The translations under genes and the position numbers were made by a program. Source: Capsaspora owczarzaki ATCC 30864 (taxonomy: Eukaryota; Opisthokonta; Filasterea). From it: 64,000 nt of DNA. The notes below the pieces were generated by a model, which was given only the letters and a program-made list of their open reading frames with translations, was not told the origin of the DNA and did no database searches. Shown here piece by piece: positions 3,076-35,100 of the stretch. Position 1 is the stretch's first letter; each line of letters opens with the position of its first letter. The stretch is taken from positions 455,368 to 519,367 of the forward strand of contig NW_011887300.1 of NCBI RefSeq assembly GCF_000151315.2, given 5' to 3'.

Positions 3076-6000
3076 TCACTTCGCACTCGCTAACAACGCT
3101 CCCAGATCGCGAACGCCACCAGAATGTTGAGCAGCCATGTGAGCAAAGGCAGCGTGCAACTGACGCGCATCGATGCGATTCTCAGCTTCCCACATCCAGC
3201 AATTCGACATGGCTTGCCAGAGCGGATCGCTGCAGTGGTCTGGTCGCGGCAAGCGTCCACCTTTTTCCAAAAAGTCCACGAGCGCCTTTGGCTCGATACC
3301 CGGATATGGGCTCAATCCGGCTGACATGACCTCCCACATGAGCACACCTAGCGCCCAGACGTCGGACGCAGGCGATGACTTGCGGAAGAGCAAAAACTCG
3401 GGGGACATCCACTGCCAATTTTGAAACAGCACGATGCAAAGTTAGAACAAGACGATACTGTTCAGAACACCATCATCAACATTTGCGCAAAAAATACCGT
3501 ACACGAACGGGAAGTGCTCCGCGCGTCTGCATGCGATAGTAATTCTGCTCGTCCAACTCGCGAGAAAGACCAAAGTCGGAGATCTTGACCACCAAGTCCG
3601 TGCCCACAAGACAATTGCGTGCTGCGATATCGCGATGCACAAAGTGCAGTTCGGCCAGATACGACAAACCGCTTGCCACTTGCGAAAAGATGTGCAGATA
3701 CTCCCCGACTGTTGGCACGAGTCCCCTGGACGAGCATGACTGAATGACATTGCGCAAGTCACCGTACACGAGCAGCTCGAGCACGAGCATCCACGGCTCC
3801 TGTTCGACAAAGACCTCGACAACCGAAACAATGTTGGGATGGCTGAAGCGTCGCATGATTTGCGCTTCGCTGGCAAAGTCGCTCTTGCTCTTGTCCGTTG
3901 CGTCGGATTTGAGCGTTTTGACCGCGACAGCAGCAGTGGTCGCACCCGATGAGTCAGACCCGCGAGCGTGCTTGGAGAGCCACCGAGCGGGTACATGTGC
4001 CAGCCAGACCTCGCCAAAATTGCCCGCGCCGAGTTGAGTCGTGAACTGAAGCTCGTTGCGAGAAAACTGTTGCTCTCGCTGGAAGGAATCAAGCGTTGTG
4101 ATGTAGAGTGCGTCATAGTCGCTTTCCGAGGGCACATTCGCATTTGCATTCGCCCCGGCAAAGCTCGCACGCATAGCTCCAAAGTCTGGCGCGCCAGCCG
4201 TTGAGACAACCCTTGCAGGCACGGACGCGCGATTTGCACTATTAAGCGCCCGAGGCTTGTCGGGAATGCTCGGCACGAGAGTCGGCTGTTGTGGCGAGTC
4301 GTAGGTATCGTCTAGTGCTGGATTCCGAGCCAATGCTTCGTACGTCGGTGCCTCTGCATAAACGGGATTGGCATTTCTGACAATCTGCGGTAAAAATTCG
4401 TAGGGATCTTCCTGCTGCTGCTGCTGCTGCTGCGGAGAGTCGTAGGTACCGCCAGATGTCAGTAAAGCGTTTGCATACATATGGTTCCGAGACACTGCTT
4501 CATAGGTTGGCTCAGCAGCAGCAGGCAAGGGCTTGGATGTTGGGATGGCAGATTGCCGAGAGCGACCACGACGACGCAACATTCCAATAACGATCACGAG
4601 GACCAAAACGAACAGAATGCCTCCAGCTGCAGCACCTACGGCAGCTCCAATCGGTGCAGAGTTGGAATCGGGTTGGGAGCCGGCTGAGCTCTCATCATCC
4701 CTGATGAGAATGGCCATTGCTTGCGCAGTGCCGAGGCGCGCCCCTCCTTGCACATTTGCCAGTCGGACGAACAAGACCCGACCCCCGTCCAGGAGACCAT
4801 TGTCATGCAACGGTAGGACAATCTCGGTCTGATTTTGGCCGTCTTCGAACGTGACCATGAAAGGTGCTGTGGTCACGTCGAGCGTCAGATCGGCAAACCG
4901 GGATGGCAAATTCAGGCCTGACAGCGGAGCAAATGCAGGATCGGATGTGACGTTGGTTGATAGGACAAAGCTCAATGTGACGAGACCGACTTGTGAGACC
5001 TCTCGCCACAGTGACAAACGAATGACGCCAGCGTCCTCGGAGACGATCGTTACAAGTGGATTTTGGCCCGAAGAGGGAGCAAACTCGACCACGCCGTTGA
5101 CGTCGTCATTCTTCAGAATGGTCACAGTCGCCACTGACGTCCACGACAAGGTTGCACCAGCCACGTTGACGAGCGTCACCGTGAACGTCTCGTCGAGTTC
5201 TGGAATTGCGTCCTTCTCAATTTGGATGTCAAACGAGACAGATGTCTCCCCAACCGCGAGCGTGTACGAGTTGTTTTGATTTGACGCGTCAAAGTCGTCG
5301 CCGGATGCGGAAAGAGGCATTGCGGTGGCTTGGAAACTGACTGCTGTGGCACTTCCGCCGACGCGTTGCACTGTCAGAGTGACCTTGCCGTCATCCTCGA
5401 CGACAGAAACCGTCGGTTGAACAAAAGATAAAACGCCGTTTACACCATCCTGGGCTTCAATAGCGCACGGGATGGTAGAGTCCAACGACGTCGCGCCAAC
5501 AAGAAAAGTTGCTTCCTGACCAGCGCTGGCTCCGTTCGCCGTCAAAACAAGCTTGAACAGCTCGGTCGGCTCCTGTGCGCTGTCTGCGCTGATCGTCCAT
5601 GATGCCAACGCAGTACTTTGTCCAGGTTCAAACGTGACAGTGCGAGCGGAGCTGTCAGCAAAGTCAGCCGAGCTGGTTGTTTCATGCGCGATGGAGACAA
5701 CTCCCGACACTCGGCGGAACGTGCCACCGACACGCGAAACAGCGACAGTCACAACATCGCTCTCGCGAACAAGCAGACGGCTCTCGCCCGTCGCACTCGG
5801 CGTGAGACTGACACTCTCGAACGCCAACGCTCCGAATGGATTGTCGTTCATGCCGATGCAAACGTCTGTAAAGTTGCTGACTGGGTCAATGGTCGCGCCA
5901 TAGCTTGCCGAATCCAGCTGCACCCAAAAGTACTCGTCCAACTCCGGGATTTCATCGTCCAGCAGCATCACTTCAATCTGTGCACGGTCCACGCCAGCAG

Positions 6001-8889
6001 CGATGATCACTGCTTGAGTTGACAAGGCCGTGTAATCTTCGGGCGCTGATGCTCGATTGTCGGCGGACAGCGTCGTGTTCTTGAACCTTCCGCTGTGCAT
6101 TGACCAGGTGAATGCAATGGCACCATACAGACCACCAGAGCGGATGACTTCGATCGCCACCGTGTTGTTCGGCTGAGGAACTCCACCAACAAGGGGCGAC
6201 TCTTCAAAGCAACTGGACACCCGCGTGATTGAGAGAACACCACGCGCATTGTCGTTCTCGGGTATGGTGACCAACGCCAGCGCCAATGTCGCATCGACAC
6301 GGCCAGGTCCGGACACATACTCCAAAAGCAGACCAAACATTTCATCCAGCTCAGGGACACCATCAGCAAGCACTGCAATAGAGACATGGGCCTCGACATC
6401 GTTTTCGCTGAAAGTGACAAGCTGGGAAACAGCAGCATAGTCGCTTGGGGATGCAATTCCCACACCATTTGTTTGACCTGAGCTCAAAGTCAAACTGCGC
6501 ACACGAACGACCGTAGTTCCCAGAGTGCCCTTGAGTCGCTTTAACTGCACAAAGCCCGTAGAGCTCTCCGCCACTGACACGTGAGTCAAGCTGAATCCAA
6601 ACACACCATAAGGGTCGTCGTGTGCGTTCACGGTCACGCGAGAAGTCGAATAGTACCCGATGGCCGCGGCAGATCCACTGCCAGTTACCATTGCATCTAC
6701 GATGGTATACGTGTGCTCGGCATCAAGAGTAGGCACAGACGAGAATGGCAGCTGAATGACCTTTGTTGCTGCGGCTTGATTTGCGGGAATCACGATCGAA
6801 ATGTTTTGGGGCACTGGGAAATCGCACCTCACAGTGACATTGATGGCTTTCACGAGTGATGCATACGAGTAACGCTCAATCGTGAGAGAGTAGGTGCCAG
6901 CGGTAATGTCCACCCGAAACGCGCGTGATTCCTCGGCAAACCTCACCACCCCCGTTTGGTTGTCGTGCGCGTCAATGACGATTGTTGCGGTAGTGAACTG
7001 GCTGCTTGCGCCCTGCAATTGAACCTGGATGCTCTGTATTGTCGCAGAGCGGTCGCTACCAATCAGTACGATCGAAATATTCTTGTGTGTGTCGGCCAGG
7101 TTGAACATGAGCGGAGATGCGGTCGCCACGAGGTAGTCTGTGCCGACGGTGGCACCCACGGACGAGACGTTAAAGAAAACCGGGGTGCCATTCACTTCAG
7201 GGACCATCTCGACACGAAGATTGATGGTGCTGCTCATGCCCGCCCCGCCATCAGGGATGAGCATAAACCGCGAATCTTCAGCAAAGGAAGCTCGGCTTTT
7301 GATGGCACACTCAAACCCGGTGCCCTCGTAGCCAACCGCGCACGTGCATGTGAAATTGCCGGCATAGTTTGTGCAGGACGCATGTTCATCGCAAGGAGAC
7401 GTGGAACACTCGTTGACATCCGTGCACACCGTGCCGTTTCCGGAAAAGCCCGACGCACATTGGCACTCAAAGCTGCCAATGGTGTTGGTGCAGATGGCAT
7501 TCCCGTCGCAGTTGTCCAAGCCTTCCTGGCACTCGTTGATTTCCGTGCAGTTCCGGCTATTGGGCTGCAGACGCCATCCCGCTTGGCATGTGCAGTAGTA
7601 CGTGCCGAGAGCGTTGTTGCAAATGTGGCCGCAGCCTCCGTTGTGTGTCGAGCACTCGTTGATGTCGACACAGCCGTTCGGCCCGCGACCAGCGTTGCTG
7701 ATGGCGTATCCCGAGTTGCAAGAGCAGGAATAGTCGCCAATGGTGTTGGTACAAATTTGCGCGCACTGGTTGCCACCACCAGGAGCGCATTCGTCAATGT
7801 CATTGCAGGCGAGCGTCGAGCTCCAGGTCCACAGCTCATTGTTCATGCAGGTCGTCGTAGCCGAGCCGCCCGTAAAACCAGGCTTGCATGTGTACTGACA
7901 GGTGCACCCGTACGTTGTGCATTGACAGGTACTGGTGACGGCCACGGCGTTGGCTGGAGGCAACAAGAAGGTGCCACAGTTTTTCTTGGTGTCGCAGTTT
8001 GTATTCTTCCAGCCAACGCAGCAGCTCTTGGCGCCGTTGGTCTGGCAGGTGTAGCACGCGGCAGCATTATTCTGAGCCAAACAGTACTGACAAAAGAAGC
8101 CTGGCTGACCAGATACGCCGTTCGGGTAGTAGTTGGGGGTGCACGTGCCGCAGTCCTTGTCCCCATAGCCGACCGAGCAAGTGCAAACGCCTGTTTGAGT
8201 GTTGCAGCCAGTACAAGCGGGAGGATCGTTCACTCTGCAGTATTCGCTGCACCTCGTGCCATAAAAGAAGGTATCACACATGGCGCGATAGTAGACTTGC
8301 ACTGCGGGAATGTTGTAATCGCCACCAGTCGTGGCGCCAATATTCACGCCTTGCCAAGGATTTACGTTAATGTTGCCATACTCTTGATTGGCATTGATGT
8401 ACGTCTTTTGGGTGAGCAACGAACCCATGTCATCGTCCGCATCGAAAATCGGTCCGTCGATGTCGATGCAACTGACGCTCCATTGCACCGAGCCGTCCCA
8501 GTTCTCCACCGCGCCAACGTTGAGATCCAATGACCACCGAGGTGTGGCGCTCTGCTGTTCCGAAGCAATGAAGTTTATTTGCGGGCTTGAGCTACCAAAT
8601 TTAACCCATCCAGTGCATTGCGGATCGCCTGAAACAAAAAGAAAAAAAACCAAAACCAAAACGATTAGTCAGGCCGTGTGTTGTCAAACCCAAAAAATCA
8701 ACAAGCCCGGAACGTACATGCGTTTGCTTCTCCACAGTTCGATGATTGAGTGAAATACAAGGCGCGCGCAAAGCAAGTGGCACGATATGGCCCCGCAATG
8801 GCTGGCTTGTACAGGAGGGCGAAGGCGAGCGCAAACCCCAGAGCGAGTCGTTTGGCGGTTGCTGATGAGGGTACTCGGCCAAACCCCAT
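3076..8889 (-). CDS. Receptor tyrosine kinase with EGF-like and Calx-beta ectodomain
   Basis: Three exons: 8718-8889, 3503-8628 and 3411-3076. The introns are GT-AG, 89 and 91 bp, and the exons sum to 5,634 nt (1,877 aa). Exon 1 supplies a signal peptide (hydrophobic core LALGFALAFALLY) missing from the main frame. Next come a Cys-rich region with a sushi-like module, four calcium-binding EGF repeats (about residues 330-496, DINEC/DVNEC starts) and about seven Calx-beta repeats (about 600-1370, each closing with a motif like ENDN or KNDD). A single membrane segment lies near 1386-1410, followed by RRRGR. The juxtamembrane tail carries tyrosine motifs. The kinase domain (about 1576-1850) has GAGNFG, VAVK, catalytic loop HRDIAARN and DFG. 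The second intron falls inside LPVR/WMSPE, so splicing restores the canonical activation segment. All catalytic residues are present, so it should be an active tyrosine kinase. The ligand is unknown. Confidence 0.93.
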
Positions 8890-8974: not shown

Positions 8975-10197
8975 AAAGGAAGCAATTTCAAGCGAATGGG
9001 GAGTCGACGGTGAGCATTCAGCGTGTTACAAACAAAAGGCAATTTTGTCTTTTTTTTTTTTCCTTTTTTTTTTCTTCATATCACAACTCCTTTTCGTTCG
9101 CTCTCATTCTCTCTCGCTGTCCAACAATGCTCTCTGCAGTCGACTGCCTTGTTTATGTCGTTGTCAGCTCTTGTGCTTGTGGTTTTGCTGGTTGCCCGTT
9201 TGACAATCCAACCGCAGTTCCGTTTAGCAGCCGTTTTGCGGTGGTGCGAACATGTTGGACAAAAACAAAAGTTGCTAAAAAATGGGGGTTCTTCCGATTC
9301 CACTTTGACGACTGCGCCTGCGCCCTCCCGAAGCGTGAGTGAGACAACTGCTGTTGGGGTCTCTTGTACTGTGGGTGTGTGAGAAGCGGAGTCAGGGGGT
9401 AAGGAGTCGGGAGTGGAGTGACTCGGTGTAACCAAAGCAATGCCGTTCACCCGCAACAACAACAACAACAACAAAACCCACAACTGGCGCTTCCTGCTGT
9501 GAGTCATCGTCCGGCGAGTGCGGCGCAGCGACCCCACAACAAGCAAAAAATCAAGATCATCGTCATCATCATCGTCATTCTCATTTTGAGATGCACAGCG
9601 GGTGATTCGGACACAGTGCAGTGCGCAGATGCTGAAAATCGAGCTTACGTTCAAATCTAGCAAATTTGCAGTCCACTAAATGACAAAATAATAACAAAGA
9701 CCGAAAAAAAAAGGACTAATTTGAACTTGACTGAATGAGATTGTCAGAGTAGAGATGTGATGCGTCGAGGTCGGAGCGATGGGCGAATCGCAGTCTCACT
9801 GTGAATGTTCAGTCCCGAAAGTGCCGAATTTGCGACACAACCCAATCTACAGCATTGCATTTCAACGACCAAACCACGCTCCGGTGCCAAACGCACAGCC
9901 TACAGTTGCTGATAAATCACACAAGAAGACGCAAAAGCAAAGCTACTAGTATGTAGGGCTCATTCACAACAGTGATCGGACCCACCAAAGTCCAACAAAC
10001 AGCATAAAAACCATTGCTCAAAAGCAGCAACAAACAAGAAATCATCATTAACAGGTATATAACAAAAAGAAAGTATCAAAGCAAAAGCACACACAAACTC
10101 AAAAGGTAGAGTAAGCAACCTCCAAGGGCCAACTCGCAAACTCAAAAGACACAGCAACAAACGAAAACAGCGCGAAAACCAAAATCAAAAAAACAAA
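8890..10197. other. Intergenic region: receptor kinase upstream region and 3' side of giant gene
   Basis: Both flanking genes are on the minus strand, so this stretch holds the promoter/5' UTR of the receptor kinase and the 3' UTR of the giant gene. It contains a GA microsatellite, poly-T runs near 9050-9075 and a CAA run near 9450-9475. Short open frames exist on both strands but none has convincing protein features. Confidence 0.55.
8921..8970. repeat. (GA)n microsatellite
   Basis: About 25 uninterrupted GA units, roughly 30 bases upstream of the receptor kinase start codon on the minus strand. On the transcribed strand it is a CT tract in the 5' UTR or core promoter. Confidence 0.95.
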
Positions 10198-13100
10198 TCA
10201 CTCATTGTCAGCCGGAATAAAGAAGGACTGGGTGGTGGTGGAATGCGCTCCGTTGTGAGCACGCAAGAGACCAATGTAGTTGTCGAGCCGCACGAGCTTG
10301 CGAGAATCGTCAAACAAGCCGGCGGTCGTGTAGTAGCAGAAGCGGTTGGCGTCGTGGTGCCACGCCATCTCCTTGCAGTGCGTGATCGAAGCAGGCATGT
10401 CGAAAATGTTGTCGTAGCAAGCAATCGCGGTCGAAGGAGCGCCAGGCACCGCCTCATCCCAGGTCAGGATGGACATGTCGGAGGGTGCGATAGGTTTGGT
10501 CAGGGCAAACTCGACCTCAACGCCAGCTGGACTCGATTCAGGGTCTCGCACACCAAAGCCAATCACAAGCAACTGATCTGCCTCCCAGCAGCTCGCCGTG
10601 GCGTTCTCTGCAAACACGGGCGGCGTCAAGTCAATCAGGGCCGTCGCGGTCGTGGGTACAGTCGAGTAGCCGGCGCGGTTGGTTGCAACGACGCTCGCGC
10701 GGTACACACCGGAGTGCGCGAGGGGCTTGTTGGTGATTTGGACAAAGTTCAGAGTGGCAGGGATGGTGCCGTTCTCGAGCATCACCCAGTCAGCTCCGCG
10801 TTGCTCCTCGAATGCGAACGAGTAGGTGGCAAGGCCAGAGTGCAGGTCGGAAAAGTCCTCAATCTCGAGCAGAACGGACGAGTTGGCAGCAAGATACTCG
10901 ACGGCGCCACGAAGATAGTCGTAAATAACCACGCTGCCCACGGTTGGAGTGATGGCAGTGATTTGGACACCATCGCTGTGCGCCACCGTGATGGCTGCGA
11001 CGTTGTTGACAGCCTCCAGCGTCACAAAGTACTTGAGTCCGTCAGCGCCAGAGGTCAGGTTGAAGGACGCGCTGGTCGCCAGACCCACCGACGTCATGGG
11101 CATCACGTTCAAAAGTCCCTTGCCCGTGCCGATCGCCCAGCGGTACTCGAGAATGCCCGACTCTGGATCGTCAAAGCCGTCCCAGTTGGCCGAAATCTCG
11201 TTGGTGGGTTGGTAGACGGCATCTTCCGTGGTGCTGAGACCGTCCCTCAGCTGACCCAGCGCGGGCGGCGTGAGGTCCACGAGCAGCTTCTGCGACGTCA
11301 TCTTGGCGCGGATACCAGCGCCATTGATGGCCACCAGCGTAATGTAAATCTCCTGTCCGTGAAGCAACTCCAAGGCCGAGTTGGTCGCGTTGGTGGCCTC
11401 GCCTTCGACCTCGAGATACTCTTGGATTTGCGTGCCGCCGGGCCGCGTGCCGATGGCCCACTGGAAGCGGTCAATGCCAGATTGCATGTCACGCCAGTTC
11501 GACCATGTGACAATGATTTGCGTCGGATCACGCTGCGCACAAACAGTCGGAGTGCACAGGGCATGGCGCTCGGGGTCAAACGGCAGCAACGCGCCAACGT
11601 CGGGTGCAGACGCGTCGGGCACCAGGCCGTCGGAAACAACAACGCTGCTGCTGGTGCCAACAGCATTGAGCACGTACACCGAAACGTACAGCTTGCCAGC
11701 CAGCGGCGTGGGCGAGACGAACGTGGCATTGACTTGCAGGCCGACCGAGGTGAATTCCAGGACGTCGTCAGCACCAGGAGTGGTTCCGATCGCCCAGAAG
11801 TACTCGGCCAGCGGAGCGTACATCCCTTCGAATCCCCACCACATTGCAGAAACAGTGTATGGATCGCTGCTGTAGTCGGCGTCCTCCGGGCCCAAGCCGT
11901 CCACGACAACACCGGCCATTGGCGGCTGGTTGTCCACCATGACGCCGTCCGAGGCACGCTCCAAAAACAAGCCAGACTCGGTGTAGCAGCGAATTGTCAC
12001 ATAGTAGTGGTGACCCACCAAGAGTGACTTGCCGTGCGCCGCCAGATCGAACGTGACATTGGTTTGCTGGCCAACAGGAGTAAAGTCCTGCACATTGTTC
12101 AAGTAGGGAAGTGTGCCGACAGCCAGCTCGTAGCGGTTGGGCAGCTGCGGGGAAGTGTCAAAGGCTTGGCTCCAGGATGCCGAGATGGAGCTCGAGCTCG
12201 ACTGGTAGTCCAAGTCCTTGTCAGGCACAAGACCATCAAGCACGCGATAGCCACGCTGCAGCACAGCACGAGGCGCAGAGTCCAACACCTTGACGCCATT
12301 CGAGTTGGCCAGGTAGCACGTGCCGTCGTTGGCAATCGCTCGCACTTGGAAGAGGTACTCTTGCCCTTCAATCATCTTGAAAGAGTCGCCGCAAACTTGC
12401 GTTGGGAAGGCCTTAAAGTTGGGATTGTGCACAGTGCCAACCGCAACACCGCTTCGCGTTGCCATGTCGGCAGTAACCGCGTGCAGGAATTGGGTGCACA
12501 AGACATCTCCGTCGGACAGACCCGAGCGTGACTTGATGGAGAATTCGAAACGAACAAACTTGCTGCAGATGGTCGAGTGCGAGCTGCACCAGTTGGAAAA
12601 GTCAAAGTTGCCAGAGAAGGTGTCGTTGTACGGTTGGTAGGTAATGTCCGAGCCAACCACAAACCCGTCAAGGACTTGCACGCTGCCAGTCAGGTTGACT
12701 GTGTTGTTGGAGGCACACACGACATCGGCATACGGCAACAGGCGCGAGTCTTGCAGCGAGCGAGAGTACGTCGGTTGGGCACACCACAGCGACGCGCCAT
12801 TTCGCGCAGTCACTGCAACAGAATACGGCGTCGTCGTGGCATCAAAACCGACAGGCAAAGTGACAACGGTCGTCATCAGGGTGACGGTCGCGTTGGGAGT
12901 GGGCGTGACATCCTGCGACACGAGGTTCGAACCAAGCAACGCAGAGCCCACCAGCACACGGTATGTCGCAATATCAGACTCCTCGTCAACAAAGGCATCC
13001 CATGTCACGCGGATAGTCGTCGATGACAGCACTTGGTGCTCCACCCAGCCGCCAGCGGGCGACGACCAGTCCACCACAAACGCCGGGGAGCTCACCAGCG

Positions 13101-16100
13101 CCGAGCCGACACCCGCGCCGTTGACGCCTTCAGCGACAATGTGGTACTTTTCACCAAGCTGCAAGGCGAGTTGTGAGACCATGCCACCAGGGTAGGTGCC
13201 GGTCATCTCAATGTCCATAATGTCGCGGCCGCGATGGCCCTTGTGCTGGAGAATGTTGACTGCCGTGTAGTTGACGGGGCGAACGTGCCAAGTGTACTCA
13301 AACAAACCAGACTCGCCATCGGTAAAGCCAGACAGAGTCGTCTTGACGAGCGCGGAGGAAATCTGGTAGGTTGATGGGACATTCGGGAAGATGGGATCCA
13401 GGGCGACAAGGCCATTCGTCGGCGGAGTGGCATCCACGCGAACACCGTCCGAGATGCCAGTCACATACAAGCCAGCGCCATTGTACGCGCGGACTCGAGC
13501 AAAGTAGCGCACGCCGTGCGCCAACGAGACTTCTGGATCCAGCGCCGATTCTTCCAAAAACACAGTCTCCCAGCCGCGCGTGTTGCACTCTGCGCCCGAG
13601 CCTTCGCTCTCCACGCACCAGTCAAAGCGGGCAATGCCAGAATGGGCGTCATGGAAGCCGTACCAATGCGCTCCAATCATGTCTGTCTGCGACTGGAAGA
13701 CCAAGTCGAGATGCGAAAAGCCGTCAAACACGCGACCGGTCGAGGGACGCGAGCCATCCACGCGAATGCCGTTAGACGTGCCGACAGAGCAGAGCCCGGC
13801 CATATTGCAGGCGCGAAGCGTCACAAAGTACTTGCGACCGTCGGTCAGTGACAGTCCGCTGCGCGATGCGACAGTGCTGGTTCCCACTGGGGTGAAGAGC
13901 ATGACATCCTCGTGGTTTGGCTTGGTGCCGACAGCCCACTCAAACACCTTGATGCCAGACTCGGGATCGACAAAATTGAGCCACTGGCCAGCAATGCTTG
14001 TGCGGTTGGTGGAATAGTCGTCGTCCTCTTGGCGGATGCTGGCGATGGAGGCGACATCCAGGACCTGGCCGATGGAAGGCGGCGTGCTGTCCACCGTGAT
14101 GGGCAACGACGATGCAAACGAGTGGAGTCCGGCACCATTTTCAGCGCGCACCACAATGTAGTAAACGTGTGCTTGCTGGATGGCGTTGGCCAGGTTGGTT
14201 TGCGTCGCCGAAGACATGGAAGGCACACGAACAAACGGCCGAACGTTGGCGAGACCAGGGACGGTACCAATGCCCCAGGAGTACGAGTCAATGCCCGACT
14301 CGAGATCGACAAAGCCAGCCCAATCCACCGTGATGGCGTTAATGTCGGTATGGTACTGGTTGGCCACAATGCGCGCCACCGTGACCTTGCCCACCACGGG
14401 CGGTGACGGGTCCAGAATGATGCCATCCGAGAATGCAGTGGCACTCAGACCCACCAAGTCGGTGCCGCGAACGGTGATAAAGTAGCGCACGCCCGCTTGC
14501 GGCGCAACTTGGAAGCCGTGCGTTGCCGACTCGGCCGCTGCCACCGCCTTGAGCGCAGTGCCGACGTGTCTAAACTCAAACACATCAATGCCGCCTGGGG
14601 ACGAGCCAATCGCCCATTCGTAGTACGCAATGCCTGTGAGGTGGACGAGCTCTGACTCCTCCAGATCAACGAAAGGCTGCCAGCTGCCGTACATTTCAGA
14701 GATGGAGACCTGATAGTCCTTGTCGTTGGCCAGCGAGTTGCACAGGAGCGAGCCGTCACAAATGTGCGCGGGAACGGGCGGGGTTAGATCCACCGTGATG
14801 CCGTTCGAGCAGCCGTACGTGAAGGGCGCCTCAATGCTGCCGACGCGGCCGCGGAAGCAGACATAGTAGCGCACGCCCTGCAGCAGATGCAGACCGATGG
14901 CGGTCACGACACGAGGCAAGTCCACATTGTTGGATGACGGGACAATGGCGTCGTTCGGCAGTAACGGAGCAGTCGAGTTGGCCACAAATGTGCTGTTGAT
15001 GACCGACTTGGCGACGTTTTGCGCAGAGGCAATCTTGGACAGCTCCATGCGGTTGCGGAACTCGATCAGCGAAGCATTCGCCGTTTCAGTGCGAAGATCA
15101 AACCAGCCGACCGGAACAAAGTTCTCGCCAAGCGGAATGTCGGGCGTCAGGAGAGGCGTGTCCGAGTTGATCACGCTGAGCGAGAATTGCCAGCGAACGC
15201 CGCCGTTCAGGACGCGGCCAGTCATCGGATCGGCCTCCAAGAATGAGTTGTGAGTGGCCGGATTGGCATTCAGCCCACCCACGCCGAGCAGCAGGCTGCT
15301 GTTGGCGTGCAAAAAGTGCGGCTTGGACATGTACAGAGGGTACTGCTCCCACATGAGCAGCGGCTGCGCGCCATCTACCATCAGCGCAAACTGCGCGCGC
15401 GCAAACTCCGAGGCCGCCAGCGCGTTCGATGCAAGCTCAAACCGGTTGACAGTGTGCAGATTGTTGAGCGCAGAGTTGCCAGTGTACTCGAAGCTCGAGG
15501 CGCGGCGCATGTCGCGGTCGAAAATGTAATAGTGCGTGCGAAGCGGGGCGTCCGACAGCCAGGTCGTGTTGCGCAATGCGCAAGGGAGCTGCACGCCGTC
15601 GTAACCAGCCACTGCAGATGTAAATCCGGTGGTCGCCAGCTCTGCCAGCCCACCAATACCAGCAAAGTAGTTGACGTTCTCAATGTCGTCGGTTCCCGTG
15701 TGCATTTGCTCAGGCAGAGCCGTGCTGGTGGCCGCAGCAGCACTGGCATGGTGCGTCAAGATTCCACGCACTGTTTGCTGGCCAAAGGTCGGATCCATGA
15801 CCTTGAGACGAGCCAGCATGCGATCCTGGTATCCAAGAACAACATCTCGCACCAAGCGCGTGCAGACCAGCCGCGAGTCGTAGTAGTCGAGGAACGCCGT
15901 GGCCAGGTACATAAAGTAGTTGCTCATGACGTCCACGAGGTCGATGCGGCGTTGAGCAGACATTGTCACGCCCTGCAGCAAGCCGGCGAGCGCGTCCGCC
16001 TTGAAGGCCGGACTGTCTGAACTGAGCACAATCAGCTGCACAAACTGGTCCAAACTCGCCATGTTGGTGAGAATACCATAGACTGCGCTGGCTTCCGTCT

Positions 16101-19100
16101 GCGTGAGAGCAAAGTACTGCGACGACGCCAAGTTGCCATAGGTCGCGGGGTTCAGCCAGTGAGCGTACGTGAACAGCTCCAAGCCGGATGCGACTGGCAA
16201 CTCGTTAATTTGGAGATAGGGAACCGCCGTGCTCATGTTGGACGAGATGGTCGGGATGACGGAAGCCCTGCCGAGCTGGTACCACAGAAGGTCGTTCAAA
16301 GAGGCCTCGATTCCACCGCCAATAATGTTCAGCTTGGCAGTGTAGTCGCTCGTGGCAAGCATGTCGGTCGTCAGCACGCGGGCCAAGGTAGGCAGCCAGT
16401 AGGACAGCTGTGTTGCAACAAGATACTTGAGTGCTTCGACCTCCTTGTACGTTGCCGTGCGGTAAAGGTAGAGGAGACGAAGGTAGGCGGCGTTCAGTAC
16501 GACAACGCCATCGGATGTGTCGTTCCGCCCGCCTGACAAGGCCGAATCAAACTCTTGGCGGACGTAGCGCACATAATCGAGCTGCGTGCGTTTCGAGTCG
16601 AAGGTGGCCGCAAGGCGCTCTTCCACCTGCTTGTAGACGTACGGCCCAACCTCAGCAACGATCGGCTGTGCCAGCCCTGCAGTCCAGTTTTGCGCGTTGG
16701 TCAAGTTGAACAGGTACACGTAGTTGTGGCGCACGGGCGCAACATCCTCGACTGCCAGGTTGTTAATCCAGTTGGCAAACGACAGGGGCATGTCGACACG
16801 CGGCAAAGGAATGATTGGCTGGAAGCGCTGCACGTCCTCAAACACAATCGTGTTGTCCAGAGGGACACCGGCAGTACCGATTGACCACTCGTACGTGTAG
16901 CGCATGATTGTGTCAGGGAAGCCGTCGAACGAGGCAGCGAGGGAGGAATCAGACGACGTGTAGTCACGATCCGCCAGAACAAAGCTCGAGTTGCTGGTGA
17001 CTGACGAGGCAGATGCCAGATCAACATCCAGAATGTTGATGCGGCGAGACTGAGCAAACATTGTGCCGTCAACGGGCACCGCGGGAACGGTCCGATCAGT
17101 GCGCAGCCCCACGCGGTTCCACGCACGAAGCGTAATGAACATGGGTGTAGTAAAGGCCACAGGGAGCTCCATCAGCCGATGCACAGTGTTGCTGACCTGG
17201 TACGGCTCGGACACGTTGAAAAACTCTGTCACGAATGCGGTTGGCGACGGCAGCGTGCCGATGGCCCACGCATACTGCAGGACATCCGACTCGTAATCTT
17301 CAAACTCGTCGAATTCGATGTTAAACTGCACCGTCGTGCGAGTGGGGAACTCGAGAGTTGCAGAGAGTCCACCCGTGGGGACAGGCGGGCTGTCGTCGAT
17401 GCGGTACAAATCCGTCGAGCTAATCACGCAGGTTGCGGCCTTGTCGCACACTTGCACGTACACCCTGAACTCGTCGCCAGCAGAGAAGCTGAGCAGGCCG
17501 TTTTCTCCTCGAGCGATGGCACCGGTTGCAACGTAATCGGTCGGGTTGGGCGGATCAAACAGCGTCACACCAGCAATGCCCGCGTACTCGGCCTCGGGGG
17601 CCTCGTCATGCGACACAACAATCGACCACAGGTAGTGCGAAAAGGTGTCATCGGAAGAAAAGTCCGTCCAGGTTGCCGTCACGGAAGTGGTCGACAGCTG
17701 GAAGCCAAAGATTCCGCCAAAAGAAACGTTGGCCTGGCGCTCATCGAACGTGTTGGTCTCGACTGAAATCACAGCAGGTGTGGGGGAGGATGGCAAGATG
17801 CGCACACCATCCGAGAAGGCGGTTGCAAACAACCCCTTTTCGTTGAATCCGCGAACAGACACATAGTAAACAACTCCTGGTGCAAGGACGTAGCCAGCTC
17901 CGAGCGCATTCAGCAAGTACCATGTCTGGCACTTGCGGTTGCCGTGGACGTCAAAGCCACACGGCAGCGAGCCGCCAGCAAACGCCAGGATATCCTCGGC
18001 GCCCGCACTCGTGCCAATGGCCACCTCGTACAGCGCAATGCCAGTGTGCGGATCATTGAAGCCATCCCACACGGCAAACAGGCCAGGCGCTCCATTGTGC
18101 GCGTCAATGTCAATGTGCGACTCGGGGCCAAGCGTTTCAACAACGGTGCCGGCGTAGGGCGGGCTGCGATCCACCAGGAAGGGCGTGGCAGCGCTCGAGG
18201 TGGAGAACAGGCCAGCATGCGACCACGCGCGGACCGTCAACCAGTAGCTGTGGCCGTCGAGAAGCTTGGCGAGCGGCTCGCTGTCGATCTGCAAATTGCA
18301 GTTAATGTTGTGCGTGTTGTTCGTGCAGGTCACCCAGTCGTAGAGTCGATAGTTTTCAACAGGAGACCGAATGAAGGGCTTGATGTCTTCATTCTCCATG
18401 TACGAGCCAATGGCCCAGTCAAAGTGGTCGACGCCAGAGACAATGTCAATCATGCCGTTCCAGGACACGAGGATCTGACCGCTGCCGCCCTGTGCCACCT
18501 GCACAATACCCTCTGTGGGAGGGCTGATCACGACAATGTACTCTTCGGCGGAGGTGCCCGTGATTTCACGACCCGACATGGTCACGGCAACCACGTTAAT
18601 GACAAACTCCTCGCCGTCCTCGAGCTGGATACCAGGCTGGATTTGAAGCGTCAGGCTGTTCTCAAGCACGCCGTCATTCCAAAAGATGCGGTTGCCCACC
18701 TCGGTGTGCTCGGCCGCAGTGCCCAAGCCCACGCGATAAAAGGCAACGCCAGCGCCCTCGTCCAAAAAGTTCCACTCGAGCTCGACACGCAGCTTGCTGG
18801 CTCCGTCGGCGAGGCGGACGTACTGGCGACCGTCTGTGCCGCGGTAGGAATTGGAGACTTTGATGGCGTCAAAGTGCGCTTGGGCATCGTGATCAACGTC
18901 AATACCGTCCGAGCACACGGCCACCGTGCTGTCGGCGGCGTTGTACGCACGCACAGCAAAGTGAAAGCGGCGGTTGTAACGCAAGGTCTGATTGGCCGAC
19001 GCGCCAAACTGCCGCTCTCCCATCGTGGCAAGGAGCTGCGAAGTATTGTGACGCACACCGGCGGCATCCAAGTAGCCTTGCTGCAGATCGACCGAAGCGC

Positions 19101-22100
19101 GACGCGCGCCATAGTCAAACTTTTCTGTCGTGTCCTTGAGAAGAGGGTCGCTGGTGGTCTGGAACGGCTGGATGACACACATGACCGCTGGACAGGCGCC
19201 CTTCACGGCACGCGCTGGCACCTTGTCACCATGGACGTGCACGGCGTGAGCGTCCGTCACGACCAGCTGCTCGGCGCTTGTCGGGCATAGCACATTGCAG
19301 GCGTCTGGGTCGCCAGAAACGGGGGAGCAAGGCGTTCCCAATGCGTACTCGTAGTGGTGAATGCCAGACTCGTGGTCAAAGAACGAGTCCCAGTAGGCAA
19401 AGAGCTCCAGGCTGTTCTGGTGGTCAATGTCGTTGATCAGGCCTGCGCGCTCCACGTCGGCCACAAACCCGGGCTCGGGCGGAGTCAAATCCATGGTGAC
19501 CTGGGCGCTGCGGGTCGTGAACAGTCCAGCACGGTCTGTCACCATCATGCGGAACTCGTACGAAGAAAGCTGGTACGCATGGAACTGCTCGCGCTGCAGC
19601 GTGATTTGCATGGAGGTGAGCGCAGCCGTTTGCAGCCGGTAGAACTGCTTGTCGCGTTCCGTTGGCGAGGAGGTGACGGGATCCTTGAAACCATCCTCAA
19701 ACACGTCGGGTCGCGCTTGGCCAGTGATGCGACTCGGCAAGTCGGACTGAAGCTTCAGCGGCAGGTACAATCCTGCAGGCATCTCTTGACAGGTGCCCGT
19801 CGGATACGTTCGGCAGAGCTTCCAGTCGACGGACGGCCAAGTGCCAAGACCAACGCCCGACTGGGTGTCGACAACCCAGAAGAACACGTTCATGTTCATC
19901 AGATTGGATTGATACACTTTCGAGTTATGCGTGCGACCGCATGCATCGCCGGTGCCCACAATCAACTGCGACACGCTTGGCGGGTCGAGATCCACGAGCA
20001 CTGTGCGGCGGGCCCATGCACTGACATGCCCAAACATGTTGTAGGCGCGCACGTAAAAGTGATACCAAAAGCCACTCTTGAAGCGGGTCCCGGACTGGGA
20101 CTCGAGAACGGCTTCGGTGGATGTCACAAGGCCATTCGACACGCCGACAAAGATGGTGGAACCAGCAGTGACTCGCACCTTGATGGTGGGATCGCTTGAA
20201 GGCGTGTTCGGATCCATCGATGCGGCAGGCGCATTCAAGCCGGTTGTAGTGAACCTGAATTCGTACGAGAAGATGGCCAGCCGCTGCGGTGAAGCGAGAT
20301 CGGTGTCCAGAATGGATTGGTCCAGGTAGCCGGGATCGGGAGTAATCAAGTTGGCGCCAGGCCGATCGTACTGATCGTTCATGTTGTCCAAATCGGTATT
20401 ATTGAAGGACAGGCTGCGAAGGATGTCCTGATCAGGCTCCATAAAAACGTGATTCCAGCGGAATCGGAAGCTCTTGTCGTGTGTTTGGTACCACTTTTCA
20501 TTGCCAGTTGGTTTGTAGACGTGGGCAGGATGATACGACGCATTGCTGGATGTGTAACTGGGATCGACAAACATGTTCTTGAGCTCCAGGTCACGATCGA
20601 CGAGGTTGATCTGGGCATAGTGGTCCCAGACAACGCTCGGATCGGGAATGTATGCCCGATTCGGTAGATTGTTGGTTTCCGACGTAGCTCGGCATCTGTC
20701 CTCAGCATTGCCAATGTTCCACGGCTTGGGCAGCTGCGGGAGTGCTCCAGCATCCAAGCACTCGGCCACGGTGGCGCTGGGAGCAGTGAGGTCGTAGGAC
20801 AGCATCCACAACGCCGAGCGGCCGTCACCAGCCGCATTGGCGACACGGACCTTGACAGTATACACGTTGTTGTTGACCGGAAGTGTATTGCTCGGAAAGG
20901 TGACAGAGATGCTAGCAGGATTGGACGAGGTAATATTGCCGCTCGTTTGAATCAGCGGATTGGACCAGTCTTTGCCCTTGAAAACGGCAGCACTCCAGGT
21001 TCTGATTGAGGACTGCATCTCAGAGAACGCCGAGGGCCTAAACTTGAACTGGGGCCACGCCGGGCTTCCAGTCTGCGTCACACAAGCAGCCAAGGCAGGG
21101 TTGGTAGCGCGGGACTGGCCTTTGAGCGGGCCGGTAAAGCTGCACGAGCCAGCAATCCAACGCGGGCTGGTGTTTGCCTGGTCAAACACATCCGCGGGGG
21201 AGGCCAGAACAGGGCGAGTGGGGTCGAACATGATGATAAACTTGGAAGAGCGTTCGGTGCGTTGATTGCTCAGGACAAAATTGTTGGTAAATCGATAGTT
21301 GATGGTGAGCTTGGTGCATTCATTGACAACGCCGTCCGCAGGGCGGGCGCTTGAGAAGATGCGACAGCTTGCCGGCGGATTGAACTTGATGTTGTTTGTA
21401 GCACCCGCAGTGATTTCGTACCAAATGCTGCTGCGGTATGTGTTGTACGGAGGGGCGAAATTGATGTCGCCTGCAAAGGAATTACTGCAGCTCAAACCGC
21501 AAGACGAACTGGAGAGAGGGCGCATTTCCTGTGATGCCCAGTCGAGATACTTCAGGAAGCCATTGACAGAGCCACTAGTTTCGGGGGGATAATTCGTCGC
21601 AGGTACCCAATCCTTGACCAGCCAAGCGTTGGTCAATCCGGCTGCGTTCGTTCCGGCGCTCAGAGGAACGAGGACGAGGTCTTGATCGGCGGGGTTGGGC
21701 GCACCCTCGTAGTTGAACTCAAACCGAATGTACATGCCGAGTTTGTTGCGGGATTGAGCGTTGTAATGATAATCATACTGCAACTGCCCTCCACCCGTGG
21801 TATCTTTCACCCACTTGTAAGGATCTGGCATCAGAGGGTTGACAATGCCCTCAAATGTTCGCACTTCCGGATTGAGCGAGGACTGCAGCGAGCGGTACAC
21901 GGGGACTCCGCTCTGAGGGCTGTTGGTGTTCTCCACAAGGGTCTGCGTCAGATAAAACACGGGAACAGCAGTGTCGCACCGCAGACCATTCCAAATGTTT
22001 GCAATGGAACCGTCGCTAATGCCGAACGTGGCAGGGTACCCGTAGGCAGTCTTTGTACACGTGCATAGATTGGCTTGATCCAAGCTTGGGTTGCCATGAT

Positions 22101-23734
22101 AACAACCAGAGTTGAGTGCACTCCACGCAGAGAGAGTAGGGTCATCTTGACCCGGCCATTGGAAGTACCACTGGTGGTTGCTGCCAGACATGGAATTATG
22201 GTCGACAAAACCGCCAAGTTGCAGTCCCAAACTGTTGAACTCGAAGGTCGGAGGGCGACACTGACGAGAACGACGCGTGCTGGAATACAGGAATGAGCAG
22301 TAATCCGTCGTCGAGGATTCGCAAAACTTTGAAAACTTGGTAAACACGGTTTGACTCGGCGGCTTTGTCAATCCAAAGTAGCAATCAGAGAGCTCATTGT
22401 TCACTCCCGATTGACAGTGACGGCTGAATGGGATGTAGTTGGTTGACGATAACGGGCTGCAATAGCATGTACCGCCGAAAGATGTCGTCAACGGGGAATT
22501 GAACCTGGGAAAGTTTGGCACAGCTAGCTGGAAATGGATATCGATGCCCGAGCCTGGGCCAGCGTCGGTGGTGTACAGCGAAGATTGCGCACAGTGTCCG
22601 GTTGGATAATTCCTGTTCAAGTCCGGCTCGCTCCAGCCTGGAATTGTGTAGCGCGTGTCGCAACTGCACGTTTCGGAGCACGAAGAGCCCCATTTGTTAA
22701 AGTCGCAAACGAGAGAGTCGACGCATGTGCGGAAGCGGTAGATACGATCCTCCTTGTCATTGTTGTGATAGCTAAAATGCGCCGTCATCACGGAACCGGG
22801 CTGGTCTCCGTATCGCGCTTCAAAAGCGATCGTGTCGTCCCAGTTGTTCAGATTGCCACGGTCTCGACACGAGCTGATTCTCTGGGCCGTGTTAGAACCA
22901 ACCCGGCAAAAGTAGTGTTGTGTGACGCGATCCTCTTTGTCGTTGTCGTGAACCGACTGTCAAACGATGGGGCAAAAAGTTTGTCTTGTCAGCTTTCATT
23001 CCTTCTTCTGCTTGTTCAAACACGGGTGGCACGGCGCTACTTACATGCCAGCCGGTAATGGCGGCGCCAGGGTTGCCCGAGCTGGCACCGACGTCAAAGT
23101 TGATGGGAGTGTCATAGTTGTTGAGGTAGCCAGACCACTGGCAGCCTGCCCAGTTGGTGTACTGCACACCGTTGCACACAAACCAGAACAGGCGATCCTC
23201 CTTGTTGTTCGAGTTCTCAGCATACCATCCGGTGATTGCTTGTCTACTTGGGCACGTGTACTCCACTGGCTGTTCTCGCAACAAAACACACGCACACTCA
23301 GCGGGTAAGCGAAGAACGCCAATAATGGCAAAAACAAACAACAAAAACACCCAAAAGTTCGTACCGTGTCCCAGTTGTTCACCCATCCTGGGCCCCAGTA
23401 GCCTCGGCTCTGCCACCAGCTGATCACGGCGCCTTTGACACCGCCATCCGCGAAATTTTGACCATGAACCTGGATCACAGGGGTCAAAGACGACCAAAGG
23501 GTTAGTAGAGCCAAATTTCAATCAATGATTCACCCATTCAACCAAGCATTCAGCCATGTTTCCTCTTCCCTTTCCTGCTCCCTCTCTTCCTCCTCCTCCT
23601 CCTCCCCTTCTACTTTCACCACAACCGTGCACAATTCAACGACAAGCACGAGACACCTCGTTCCCCAAAAACATGCACACCAAAGCCAAAAAGCGATCCT
23701 TCCTTCCTTCTTTCGATAGTGATGTTTTTCTTGT

Positions 23735-23777
<43 letters not shown>

Positions 23778-24547
23778 TCATTAATGGATTTTAATTGCTT
23801 TTTCCCGCTTCAAGCACAATAGAACGCACGTCTGTTCCACCAACCACCCGCCACCAGCCACTCTCCAAGTATGCATAAGTATCACCAACTGGCTCGAATG
23901 CACAAGCAAAGGCGGGTGAGGGGGGCGATGAGCAATGACAGAAATGAGGAAAGGCGTGGGTTTGACCGAAAAGAAAGAAAGAAAAAAAAAAAAAAAAAAA
24001 AAACACTGCTATTGGATTGGAATCCTTTTTGCTTTCAATCCCGCAGAGTTGGACGTTTCTATGCGCAAACTCGCCCAACATGCACTGCACACAAAAGAGC
24101 AATAAAAAAGCACTGGGGAATGGCTCCTCATCACTTGTCGCAGTGGGAGCGGAGGGGGGGCGGCGGTTTGAGACAGAGACTCCGCCCCTCTGCAATGGGC
24201 AGATTCGACCAGCGCGAGGTTGCTCAAACACCGCTCAGCCCTGACCACTCTCCCAGCTGCCTGAGTTGGACAAACATCGTCGTTGTGAATGCTGCAGGGT
24301 CGGCGACAACACTTCCCCCCCCCCCCCTAGCTCAAAACACACGAGAAGCCCTGCTATTGAGGTTTTTCATTATTCTTTTGCTTTTTGTGAGTTGCGATCA
24401 ATCAATCGCGGGAAAAGCACACTCAACTGGATCGATGGCGACAATGGCAAGGACGGCGAGGAAGCCGAGAAGGGCGACGGCGAGCGTGCTGCTGGTTGCA
24501 GAGCGACGAAGGACGTGCTTGGAAGGGAATCCAATGCCGCATCCCAT
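10198..24547 (-). CDS. Giant secreted protein: dermatopontin-like repeats, FN3-like array and nested CD36 ectodomain
   Basis: Exons 23365-23469, 23045-23269 and 10198-22956 join in phase 0 through 95 and 88 bp GT-AG introns. A tentative first exon, 24428-24547 (or from ATG 24634), supplies a signal sequence (TLAVALLGFLAVLAIVAI) across a 958 bp intron with a weak donor (gttgag). This gives about 4,400 aa. Residues 41 to about 230 hold dermatopontin-like repeats: WVNNWDT..EYTCPSRQAI, then EDR-W motifs such as HNNDKEDR and HDNDKEDR. A Cys-rich stretch follows. Then come about 20 FN3-like repeats of about 100 aa with the recurring pattern SGI..Y.WAIGT, YYVTVRA.N.AGL, SDGV.VD.TPP. Between about residues 2190 and 2840 one repeat is split by a CD36-family ectodomain. 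There is no C-terminal membrane segment or GPI signal, so it is probably secreted or matrix-associated. The exon 1 junction is the least certain part. Confidence 0.85.
14890..16830 (-). other. CD36/SR-B-type ectodomain encoded inside the giant gene
   Basis: Within the last exon of the giant gene. The N-terminal half has the family signature FANWIN, VYLFNLTNAQNW, then VAEVGPYVYKQ. The C-terminal half has PLYMSKPHFLHANSS, GVGGLNANPATHNSF and ADPMTGRVLNGGVRWQFSLS, matching the conserved SR-B order (sPHFl.a, GLnPn...H.t.ldiePlTG). A divergent helical stretch of about 250 aa lies between. The cysteine cluster of vertebrate CD36 is largely absent (only two Cys seen) and neither family membrane segment is present. 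The upstream neighbour is the first half of an FN3-like repeat (YEWSIGTAG) and the downstream neighbour is its second half (LLQGVRYYVCFRG). Confidence 0.85.
23738..23776. repeat. Poly-T tract of 39 bases
   Basis: A homopolymer inside the predicted long first intron of the giant gene. The same intron also carries a 22-base poly-A (23982-24003) and a 13-base poly-C (24315-24327). Their lengths are prone to sequencing error. Confidence 0.9.
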
Positions 24548-24634
24548 TGCTGCTGGTGCTAGTGCTGCAACTGGTGCTGTAGCCCCACGAAGGGCGGGAG
24601 GCCAGCGGTGACCACCACTGCGGTCCCTCTCCAT

Positions 24635-32197: not shown

Positions 32198-35100
32198 CTA
32201 CTTGTCTGCCGACCAGTGCACAGAGTGCAGAATGTGTTTGCGGGAAGTTACGAGATCAGTGTCAGCGTCAAAGACACATCGGACCATCATGCTCAGATCG
32301 ACGCTGCGCTCGTCTCGAAGGCATTGCGACACTGATGCAAGGAGCAGTTGCACGCTTGGATTGAGGGCAGAGACCTTGTCGGACTCGCATCTCTCGAACA
32401 GAGGGTTGAGCATGGCCACTTCATCTGCCAGAATGCGTTGCGTCGTGACAGGAAGCGGCCAGGCCTTGTTTGGTGGAACCGTCACCACGACGTCTACGCC
32501 TGCTGCAGAGATGGATTGGTCGCGCGCGTGCAACACGAGCGGATGAAACCACCAACAAATCCCCAGTGTGTGCGCATCCGAGCGCACATTGCAGCAGTTG
32601 GTACACAATGCAGCAAGGTTGGTCAGGGTTGAAGGGGTGCCACAAGCCTCGCACCCGCGGTAGGTGAGGGAACGCATCCAGGGCAGTATTTCATGGGAAT
32701 CTTGCGAGGTGGAGTTGGCGCTGAGCGCTGGCATTGGGCTGGCATTCCGGATGAGTGGTAAAATAAATGTAATCAAGGCATTGCGAACAAGTACACGGCC
32801 ACTGGCTTTCTGCTCGAGCAGCTCTGCAAAAGTGTGTACTCTGTGGCTTGCACGCGCAATGAGAGTGGTGCGGAAGCGTTCGACCTCTGGCGTTCGTGTT
32901 TTGGCGACCACCGCCAGCTCTGTCGTTTGAATCGAGTTGACAGCCTGCTCGTCGTCCACCGACGGAAAGAGCAGAAGGCGTGATAACGGACTGGTGTGCA
33001 GCGTTAGTTTCGAGCCACTGGTATCCTTTCGGCACATGAGGTGCGTCAGCTCCAATACTGGCGCTGCTTCGATGGAGGAGGTCGCCGCACAGCCCTGCAA
33101 CAGCTTGACCCAGTCATGAGTTTGTCGACCCCACACGCACACCATTGTCGCACAGTCTGCGCGATCGCTCAGGGAAAGTGCTACTCGACCCGCGCGTGTG
33201 TTGGTCGAGCCATAAGTATACGCGTCTGAGGGCTTGGAAGCTTGTTCACAGTGCATTGCAAGTAGAAGCCCTCGAAAGTTCAGGACTTGGCCATCGCGAA
33301 GCAGATTGCTGGGAATGAACTGCAAATCGGGACGGAAGGAGGCTGGAGTTTGCGGGACTGTGTTTGCAGCCAGAGCGGACGATGCGGGATTTGAAAAGAA
33401 GGACGGATGTCTTGTGCGAGCCCATTGAGCTAGTCGAAGCATGTGCGCGGTGTCAATCAGAGTCGGGGCGTGTGAATCACTTGAAGTTGAGGAATTGCCG
33501 GAGAGATGTTTTGGGAGCTGGACGCAGCTTCCCAGTCGTGTCATGATCGACTTGAAGGAGGTACTCGCAGAAGCAGTGCCGTTATATTGCGTGGGGCTCA
33601 CATGCGAAATGTGAATTAAATCGCCAACGGCTAGAACGCTGGCCCATGCTGTTCGCTGCCGCCAAATCGTCACACGAAAGTAGTCTCGTGTATGGTCGCC
33701 GAGTACGATGGATACCAGGTGAAAGAACGATGGTGGTGCGGCTGCTGGCTCTTCATCACCTGCTGCAGCAACTTTTGCATCCGAAGAGAGAGGAGCTGCG
33801 ACAGTGCTGGAGGCGGGTTGTTTGCGGGCCGCGAATTCTTGAACCGGATTGATTTGAACGACAACACCGCAGATGCTGGACAATGGCGCCGAGCTGGTCT
33901 CGTTTGACGGAACGGGTTGTTGTTGAGCTAACGTCCCCAGGGTAATAGCAGTGAGGCGCGCATCGGCCACAGAGTCTGTCTTCAACCGCTGGGCCGCAAA
34001 AACCCCAAGCGGAACAAAGGGCGAGTACGGATCCTGCGGCTCCTGTTTGTGCTTGCCCTGCCACTTTGACGCTGATTTCTTGAGCGGNNNNNNNNNNNNN
34101 NNNNNNNNNNNNNNNNNNNNNNNNNNNNNNNNNNNNNNNNNNNNNNNNNNNNNNNNNNNNNNNNNNNNNNNNNNNNNNNNNNNNNNNTCATCTTGGGCCG
34201 CTGTGGCTGAGTAGCAGCTCTGGTGTCGCGGCAACGCCTGCATGGCGCAATGAGCTGCTGGCTCCGAACAAGGACTGGCTGGCTTCAAGCAGGCACTCAT
34301 ACTCGTCTTGGGCAGGCACAGGCCGAGATTGCTCATGACGGTTTCAGGCTGCAGTTCAACCGGGACAAAGTGTTGCGAGACATACTTGGGGCGCGGAGAC
34401 GCCTGTCCGAACTGCCAAATATGCCGAACCAAGCTCTCTACCGTTTCGGCTTCGTGGACAAAGTTCCAGCGGGGACAGGCGCCGAGAGCGAGCGAGGGCG
34501 TGGTCTCGGTGTGCAATTGAGTTGTCGAAATAGGACGGTGCAATTGGCTTCGAATCGAGCTGGAAGGAGGGCTCGGATTCGGCATGTGCGGATGTGGATG
34601 CAAAGAGTCGCTCAAAGGGGGCAGATCTAGCGTGCCATTCCACGACTCTGGATTGGGTAAGTGTAACGATTCGCAAGTCGCTTCTGAATAGAGAAAAACT
34701 CAAACATGAATTAGCCGAACGGATATGTGCTGGAACACTTTGTCGTCACTCACAATCACCTTACCCTGACTACCCTGCAATACGCTAGACGCTTGCACCA
34801 ATCGCTCTGCAGTTGCGTTGGAGGACGGCAACGACATGTCGTGGTCAAACAGTGCGAGGGTCGCAGGAACGATGCCAGAGCTGGCGGACGACTGCATTTG
34901 CGAGATGTTCATGGATTGTGAGCACACCTCCGTCAATGGTGCCTCGTTCGTCGAGGAGGAAGGGAGACTTGCATCAGGTTGCAGACTCGCTCCCAGAGGA
35001 GCAGAATCAGAGTTGGCTTGCTGCGACTCTGGCGACTCGTGCGACTTTGTGAACTGCCCAACAGTCACCCACTCCGCCTCGGATTCAAACAGGCCGGGTG

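Follow-up and report, generated by a model that had tools for sequence, protein, structure and literature searches.

Class B scavenger receptors (SR-Bs; CD36, SR-B1 and LIMP-2; PF01130) are defined, in a survey across eukaryotes, by two membrane segments that bracket the CD36 ectodomain. This survey retained 279 of 418 CD36-domain proteins and set aside the remaining 139, which are without the two-membrane-segment layout (PMC10715195). It describes the apex of the ectodomain as ligand-sensing and places all lineage-specific expansions there, between motifs M4 and M6. The word Filasterea is absent from its main text, and a text search for papers naming both Capsaspora and CD36 did not return it. 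Here, we describe a giant gene of the filasterean Capsaspora owczarzaki ATCC 30864, located in a 64,000-nucleotide stretch of contig NW_011887300.1 (assembly GCF_000151315.2, positions 455,368 to 519,367; hereafter the window). Its predicted product carries a CD36 ectodomain that is not bracketed by membrane segments and, judging from the sequence, is nested inside a single fibronectin type III (FN3)-like repeat.

Capsaspora cells are separated by matrix when they aggregate (2013 eLife, PMC3870316). The same paper reports that two receptor tyrosine kinases with DERM (dermatopontin) and fibronectin_3 domains, CAOG_01676 and CAOG_06673, are upregulated in aggregates (PMC3870316). The giant shares dermatopontin and FN3-type parts with these receptors but, in contrast to them, has no kinase match in the profile search and no internal membrane segment by hydropathy. 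Aggregation is induced by low-density lipoprotein (LDL) and by phosphatidylcholine particles; it begins within seconds, requires clathrin-mediated endocytosis, and its receptors are being sought (EMBO Reports, PMC13171883). CD36 was not found by a text search of that paper.

A CD36 ectodomain without bracketing membrane segments

The minus-strand frame 10198-22959 (P0001) is open over 4,253 codons, for which the frame's own stop-codon frequency gives a chance of ~10^-61. Residue numbers are those of this frame and coordinates are window positions throughout. Residues 2045-2681 (14917-16827, minus strand) form an insert with a CD36 ectodomain, in agreement with the limits of 14890-16830 given in the initial annotation. 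A 1,033-residue piece matches PF01130 at 149.1 bits against a curated cut-off of 26.5. A profile match above threshold was the point that had been named beforehand for CD36 identity, and the E-value of 1.9e-43 leads us to reject chance motif matches as an explanation. The four hallmark motifs quoted in the initial annotation are all present in the frame, in order, and each of five looser CD36 motif patterns occurs once in the 4,253 residues. The likeness to class B scavenger receptors thus consists of ordered core ectodomain motifs and of sequence matches in the PDB to LIMP-2 (3.4e-12) and CD36 (2.2e-8). The giant departs from these receptors in its missing bracketing membrane segments, its nested position and its enlarged apex.

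Membrane segments were judged by a 19-residue hydropathy window. None brackets the CD36 domain, as had been claimed from the letters alone: the strongest window has a value of 0.55 ahead of the domain and of 1.29 behind it, and no window in the 4,253-residue frame rises above 1.49. By comparison, the two further CD36 genes in the genome yield 2.4-3.2 for three membrane segments. With both bracketing segments absent, the giant does not have the SR-B layout.

The CD36 match falls into two stretches, with profile positions 53-146 at 16441-16722 and 139-430 at 15058-15927. The gap between them corresponds to an apex expansion (residues 2176-2363; 15871-16434, minus strand), of which about 170-190 residues are without Pfam equivalent. 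The expansion directly precedes LVCTRLVRDVVLGYQDRML, which phmmer aligns with LFVTHTVDELLWGYKDEIL of LIMP-2, an alignment that is weak alone (5.4 bits). By our own mapping, the expansion appears comparable in place to the surveyed apex expansions. Non-animal SR-Bs such as Dictyostelium LmpA and Phytophthora SR-B_1 likewise have an expansion that maps before the hinge and an ectodomain of more than 500 residues; unlike the giant, they have the CD36 domain between two membrane segments, by the survey's selection (PMC10715195). The expansion has no significant similarity to the long CD36 gene on contig C2 described below (best overlapping blastp E 0.093 and 0.48). Scans of viral contigs and of genome contigs with the CD36 region gave no confirmed relative, and plasmids yielded no match.

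The insert divides one FN3-like repeat

The CD36 insert lies within an array of FN3-like repeats. A repeat profile built with residues 1985-2730 masked settled on 17 repeats, five ahead of the split repeat (residues 1368-1967; 17059-18858, minus strand) and twelve behind it (residues 2728-4113; 10621-14778, minus strand). A second profile, A1, comprises 14 of these 17; made from the same repeats, it is a check on the method and not independent data. The front half of the split repeat, approximately strands A to C' (residues 1993-2044; 16828-16983, minus strand), is matched on the unmasked protein by profile positions 12-59 (residues 1993-2039, 12.1 bits, E 8.4e-6) and by positions 14-61 of A1. 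The back half, approximately strands E to G (residues 2682-2727; 14779-14916, minus strand), takes up profile positions 66-110. The halves therefore stop and resume at neighbouring positions, 59 and 66 in the repeat profile and 61 and 68 in A1.

Joined at a fixed junction, the two halves score 34.0 bits. No control reaches this value: the best of 300 shuffles of the back half scores 27.4, and the best of 116 other insert windows, used as decoys, 24.4. Each half alone also beats all 500 of its own shuffles, the back half narrowly (10.4 vs 10.1). As the 17 unsplit repeats score 70-136 bits, the split repeat has to be regarded as divergent. These comparisons support a predicted protein in which the CD36 domain is nested inside one FN3-like repeat, and they bear out the earlier suggestion that its flanks are the two halves of a single repeat.

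The relation of the array to FN3 domains is seen in PDB matches of A1 to the FN3-bearing chains of contactin-2 (4e-7), titin (5.5e-7) and fibronectin (2.2e-6), the split repeat itself having been compared only with the profile of its neighbours. When the profile is aligned with fibronectin 1fnf, its positions 62-67 are opposite PGSKST, which has EFTV ahead of it and ATIS behind it and which we take to be the C'-E (DE) loop region of FN3-10. On this alignment, the split would coincide with that loop. Short extra stretches of 4-16 residues follow position 62 in three of the 17 full repeats. In addition, a second interrupted FN3-like repeat is located at 18874-19482 (residues 1160-1362). Here, ~102 residues separate profile positions 50 and 74, and the joined flanks score 33.3 bits. 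Together with the extra stretches, this repeat suggests that this region of the fold accepts guests elsewhere in the same protein.

Several points weigh against a nested position. In the whole-protein search the back half is weak (profile 66-110 at residues 2683-2727, 1.3 bits, E 0.018). The highest join score, 38.1 bits, was picked from a grid of 486 junctions; the controls used a fixed junction, which gives 34.0. Three of the 17 repeats were excluded from A1, and single repeats mostly miss Pfam fn3, with 2 of 14 matching at E ≤0.1; this divergence, and the 637-residue guest in one repeat, set the giant apart from the FN3 arrays of fibronectin, contactin and titin. The join point of the second interrupted repeat was hand-picked without a shuffle control, and its gap from 50 to 74 is wider than that of the CD36 repeat. 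The weak whole-protein score of the back half would be expected if the CD36 domain lay between two repeats, flanked by unrelated linkers rather than by two halves of one. We regard this arrangement as very improbable, given the neighbouring profile positions in both profiles, a join that no shuffle or decoy window matched, and a back half that exceeds its own shuffles, if by a small margin.

Gene model and domain order

The predicted gene extends beyond the long frame. In the splice model, three upstream exons, joined in phase 0 at GT donors and AG acceptors, lengthen the frame to a predicted spliced product of 4,431 residues. Predicted exon 1 (24428-24634, minus strand; in-frame splice model) has 69 codons and a strong hydrophobic segment at its end, with a value of 2.66 on the 19-residue hydropathy scale. 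Predicted exon 2 (23365-23469, minus strand) encodes the start of a dermatopontin domain, and predicted exon 3 (23045-23269, minus strand; DERM profile 4-69) its middle. Exon 4 (10198-22956, minus strand), which ends with the stop codon at 10198-10200, is supported by the open frame and by purifying selection; it contains the remainder of the dermatopontin domain, an N-terminal region mostly without named domains, the FN3-like array and the CD36 insert. The spliced exons match Dermatopontin (PF14704) at 119.8 bits against a cut-off of 28.3 (positions 1-149 of 152, E 1.5e-34), which supports the predicted splices. Introns are predicted near the 5' end of the gene, but the entire FN3/CD36 part is one open frame. 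An NCBIfam search returned a single irrelevant match, far below its cut-off.

The predicted order of domains is a hydrophobic signal exon, one dermatopontin domain and the long FN3-like array. This does not fit the idea that the CD36 domain is placed next to dermatopontin modules, as there is one such domain, at the N-terminus and ~2,000 residues away. The description of the product as a giant secreted protein holds for its size, and secretion is likely. The hydrophobic segment of exon 1 may be a signal peptide or, given the long polar front that precedes it, a type II signal anchor.

A second gene copy and selection on the protein

A second copy of the gene is present on contig C2. Window positions 10023-23479 are 97.7% identical to C2:1464328-1477788 over 13.5 kb, and the C2 copy retains the same layout. 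Identity is ~99.6% in the body (10250-21250), the first ~600 residues are strongly diverged, and homology ends shortly past the stop codon. Exon 1 lies outside the megablast match but is recognisable in the C2 copy at the protein level, with an identical start and a comparable hydrophobic segment. A megablast of 94 kb against 90 kb around the two copies matched these 13.5 kb and otherwise a single stray stretch of 63 bases, for which reason we reject an allelic or assembly duplicate.

Across residues 601-4253, nonsynonymous changes between the two copies number 8, against 37 synonymous ones, which corresponds to a rate ratio of 0.07 (Fisher p 4e-16). The split repeat and the CD36 domain contribute 1 nonsynonymous and 5 synonymous changes (ratio 0.07, p 0.004; small counts). 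These numbers point to a translated protein under purifying selection, the insert included, even if the insert's own counts are small. In the N-terminal 600 residues, 85 nonsynonymous and 47 synonymous changes separate the copies, and the contrast between this diverged part and the near-identical body suggests gene conversion of the body.

Simple patterns for a GTRAGT donor and for a pyrimidine-rich AG acceptor matched nowhere in 14700-17010; a looser donor pattern matched once, at 16894. In view of the open frame, the selection and these splice patterns, a pseudogene or a spliced-out segment was rejected. We also rejected a recent foreign insertion: third-position GC is 0.74 in the insert and 0.67-0.72 elsewhere in the frame, and the codon usage of the insert correlates with its flanks (r 0.94 and 0.90) as the flanks do with each other (0.93).

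An alternative is a purely structural spacer role of the insert, whose CD36 fold would then have been retained for length or shape and bind no ligand. Membrane tethering is absent, and the insert has two cysteines only (2366 and 2460), whereas animal SR-Bs have disulphide-forming cysteine pairs. The survey's account of non-animal SR-Bs, however, reports no disulphide pairs in these either (PMC10715195), and the core motifs are intact. In combination with the one nonsynonymous and five synonymous changes, few as these are, this makes a mere spacer unlikely in our view.

Related genes and the genomic neighbourhood

A CD36 profile search of the genome (27.46 Mb, 29 contigs) returned 10 matches at four places: the giant, its C2 copy, C6:1182614-1184203 and C2:197612-200630. 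This genome agrees at 25 of 25 positions with the published N-terminal peptide of C. owczarzaki CoSrc2 (PMC6001378), to which we supplied the leading M, and the filasterean origin implied in the initial annotation is thus supported. The C6 locus has CD36 pieces, the last of which includes a membrane segment; a second segment lies in a frame further upstream, assigned by eye. The remaining place on C2 is a longer, divergent CD36 gene with a C-terminal membrane segment. To both of these genes, the CD36 domain of the giant is distantly related (best blastp 4e-7 and 2e-7).

The conventional-looking gene on C6 would be a more ordinary lipid receptor, and it may be this gene that senses lipid, with the giant having a separate role. 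The CD36 pieces and the membrane segment at C6 favour such a division, as does the second segment if its assignment by eye is correct. We consider it possible, though doubtful, and it would be compatible with a co-receptor or capture role of the giant.

Contig C4 has a 4,570-codon frame that contains FN3-like repeats as well. This second giant has EGF domains and a match to Vitellogenin_N, a lipoprotein amino-terminal domain (E 8.7e-17, profile 323-556 of 590), the single Vitellogenin_N match that the genome search returned. The assignment is a candidate, given that HEAT_2 is matched at its end and that the letters preceding it are masked. A weak FN3-like repeat match at C2:2394067-2394369 (E 2.1e-5) lies in an open frame of 5,473 codons, which may be a third giant. 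Dermatopontin matches number at least 12 in the genome, on several contigs, and 8 of those listed are outside the giant and its copy.

Two neighbours of the giant are of note. On the minus strand at window 3476-8668, a 1,730-codon frame has EGF, Calx-beta and tyrosine-kinase-type domains and is, by these domains, a receptor tyrosine kinase. At window 32198-34615, also on the minus strand, an 805-residue frame matches the first OB fold of Shieldin SHLD2 above cut-off (E 3.3e-8).

Discussion

The SR-B ectodomain, an asymmetric beta barrel with an internal tunnel, has both of its ends together at the membrane-proximal base, as in the crystal structures of LIMP-2 and CD36. In the FN3 domain, a seven-strand beta sandwich, the ends of a loop are likewise close together, so such a loop can take the place of the membrane as a base. 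In the arrangement that we moderately favour, the giant would be an extracellular FN3-like rod with a loop-inserted CD36 ectodomain that binds lipids or lipid-bearing surfaces and is held in the matrix or on cells. The CD36 barrel would extend laterally from the rod, its enlarged apex pointing away from it. Apex and barrel may bind lipid, phospholipid particles or cell surfaces that carry lipid. The dermatopontin domain and the FN3-like repeats would retain this binding site, either on cells or in the extracellular matrix. Ligand would thereby be concentrated, and cells bridged to it. In this view, the giant would be an adhesive fibre on which the CD36 domain binds lipids, lipoproteins or surfaces. 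The functions put forward in the initial annotation, adhesion, prey capture and lipid binding, are inferences too.

The proposed role of the giant in aggregation is consistent with the timing of that process, since a secreted giant could act within seconds, being already present. Several points count against this arrangement. Aggregation needs endocytosis (PMC13171883), which a soluble protein cannot drive alone, so that a partner is needed. Exon 1 could encode a signal anchor rather than a signal peptide, and the C6 gene described above is the more ordinary lipid receptor.

An enlarged apex could also recognise microbial or schistosome surfaces instead of lipoprotein particles, which would make the giant an adhesin for prey or host surfaces. 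The survey states that SR-Bs can serve as pattern receptors, and a proposed view is that apex expansions vary with ligand specificity (PMC10715195). Capsaspora, moreover, is able to kill schistosomes during the snail stage of these parasites (PMC13171883). The cues with a shown effect on aggregation, however, are LDL and phosphatidylcholine (PMC13171883), and we hold recognition of prey or host to be improbable in comparison with lipid binding by the rod.

Among the matches listed, literature searches gave no description of a CD36 domain inside an FN3 repeat. As far as these literature searches reach, the predicted layout, nested and free of membrane segments, would be a previously undescribed variation on the CD36 kind. 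The claim of a new architecture in the initial annotation is consistent with this outcome, but has to be narrowed in light of the 139 of 418 CD36-domain proteins without the standard layout in the survey (PMC10715195). Public protein databases may well hold the giant with a CD36 annotation.

A wider and distinctly speculative possibility, to which we assign a low likelihood, is that Capsaspora has a lipid-capturing matrix of FN3-like giants with different lipid domains, a nested CD36 in two copies and a Vitellogenin_N-type domain on C4, which would be the first contact for the LDL and phosphatidylcholine aggregation cues. If true, such a matrix would place lipid sensing and cell adhesion in one molecule.

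CD36 domains are known mainly as receptors with two membrane segments, and the giant suggests a route by which a receptor ectodomain may become a matrix component, via an FN3 loop as its base. As lipids trigger aggregation in this close relative of animals and the receptor is being sought (PMC13171883), the two near-identical genes are concrete candidates. The giant may thus provide a testable candidate for the handling of lipid cues in a single-celled relative of animals.

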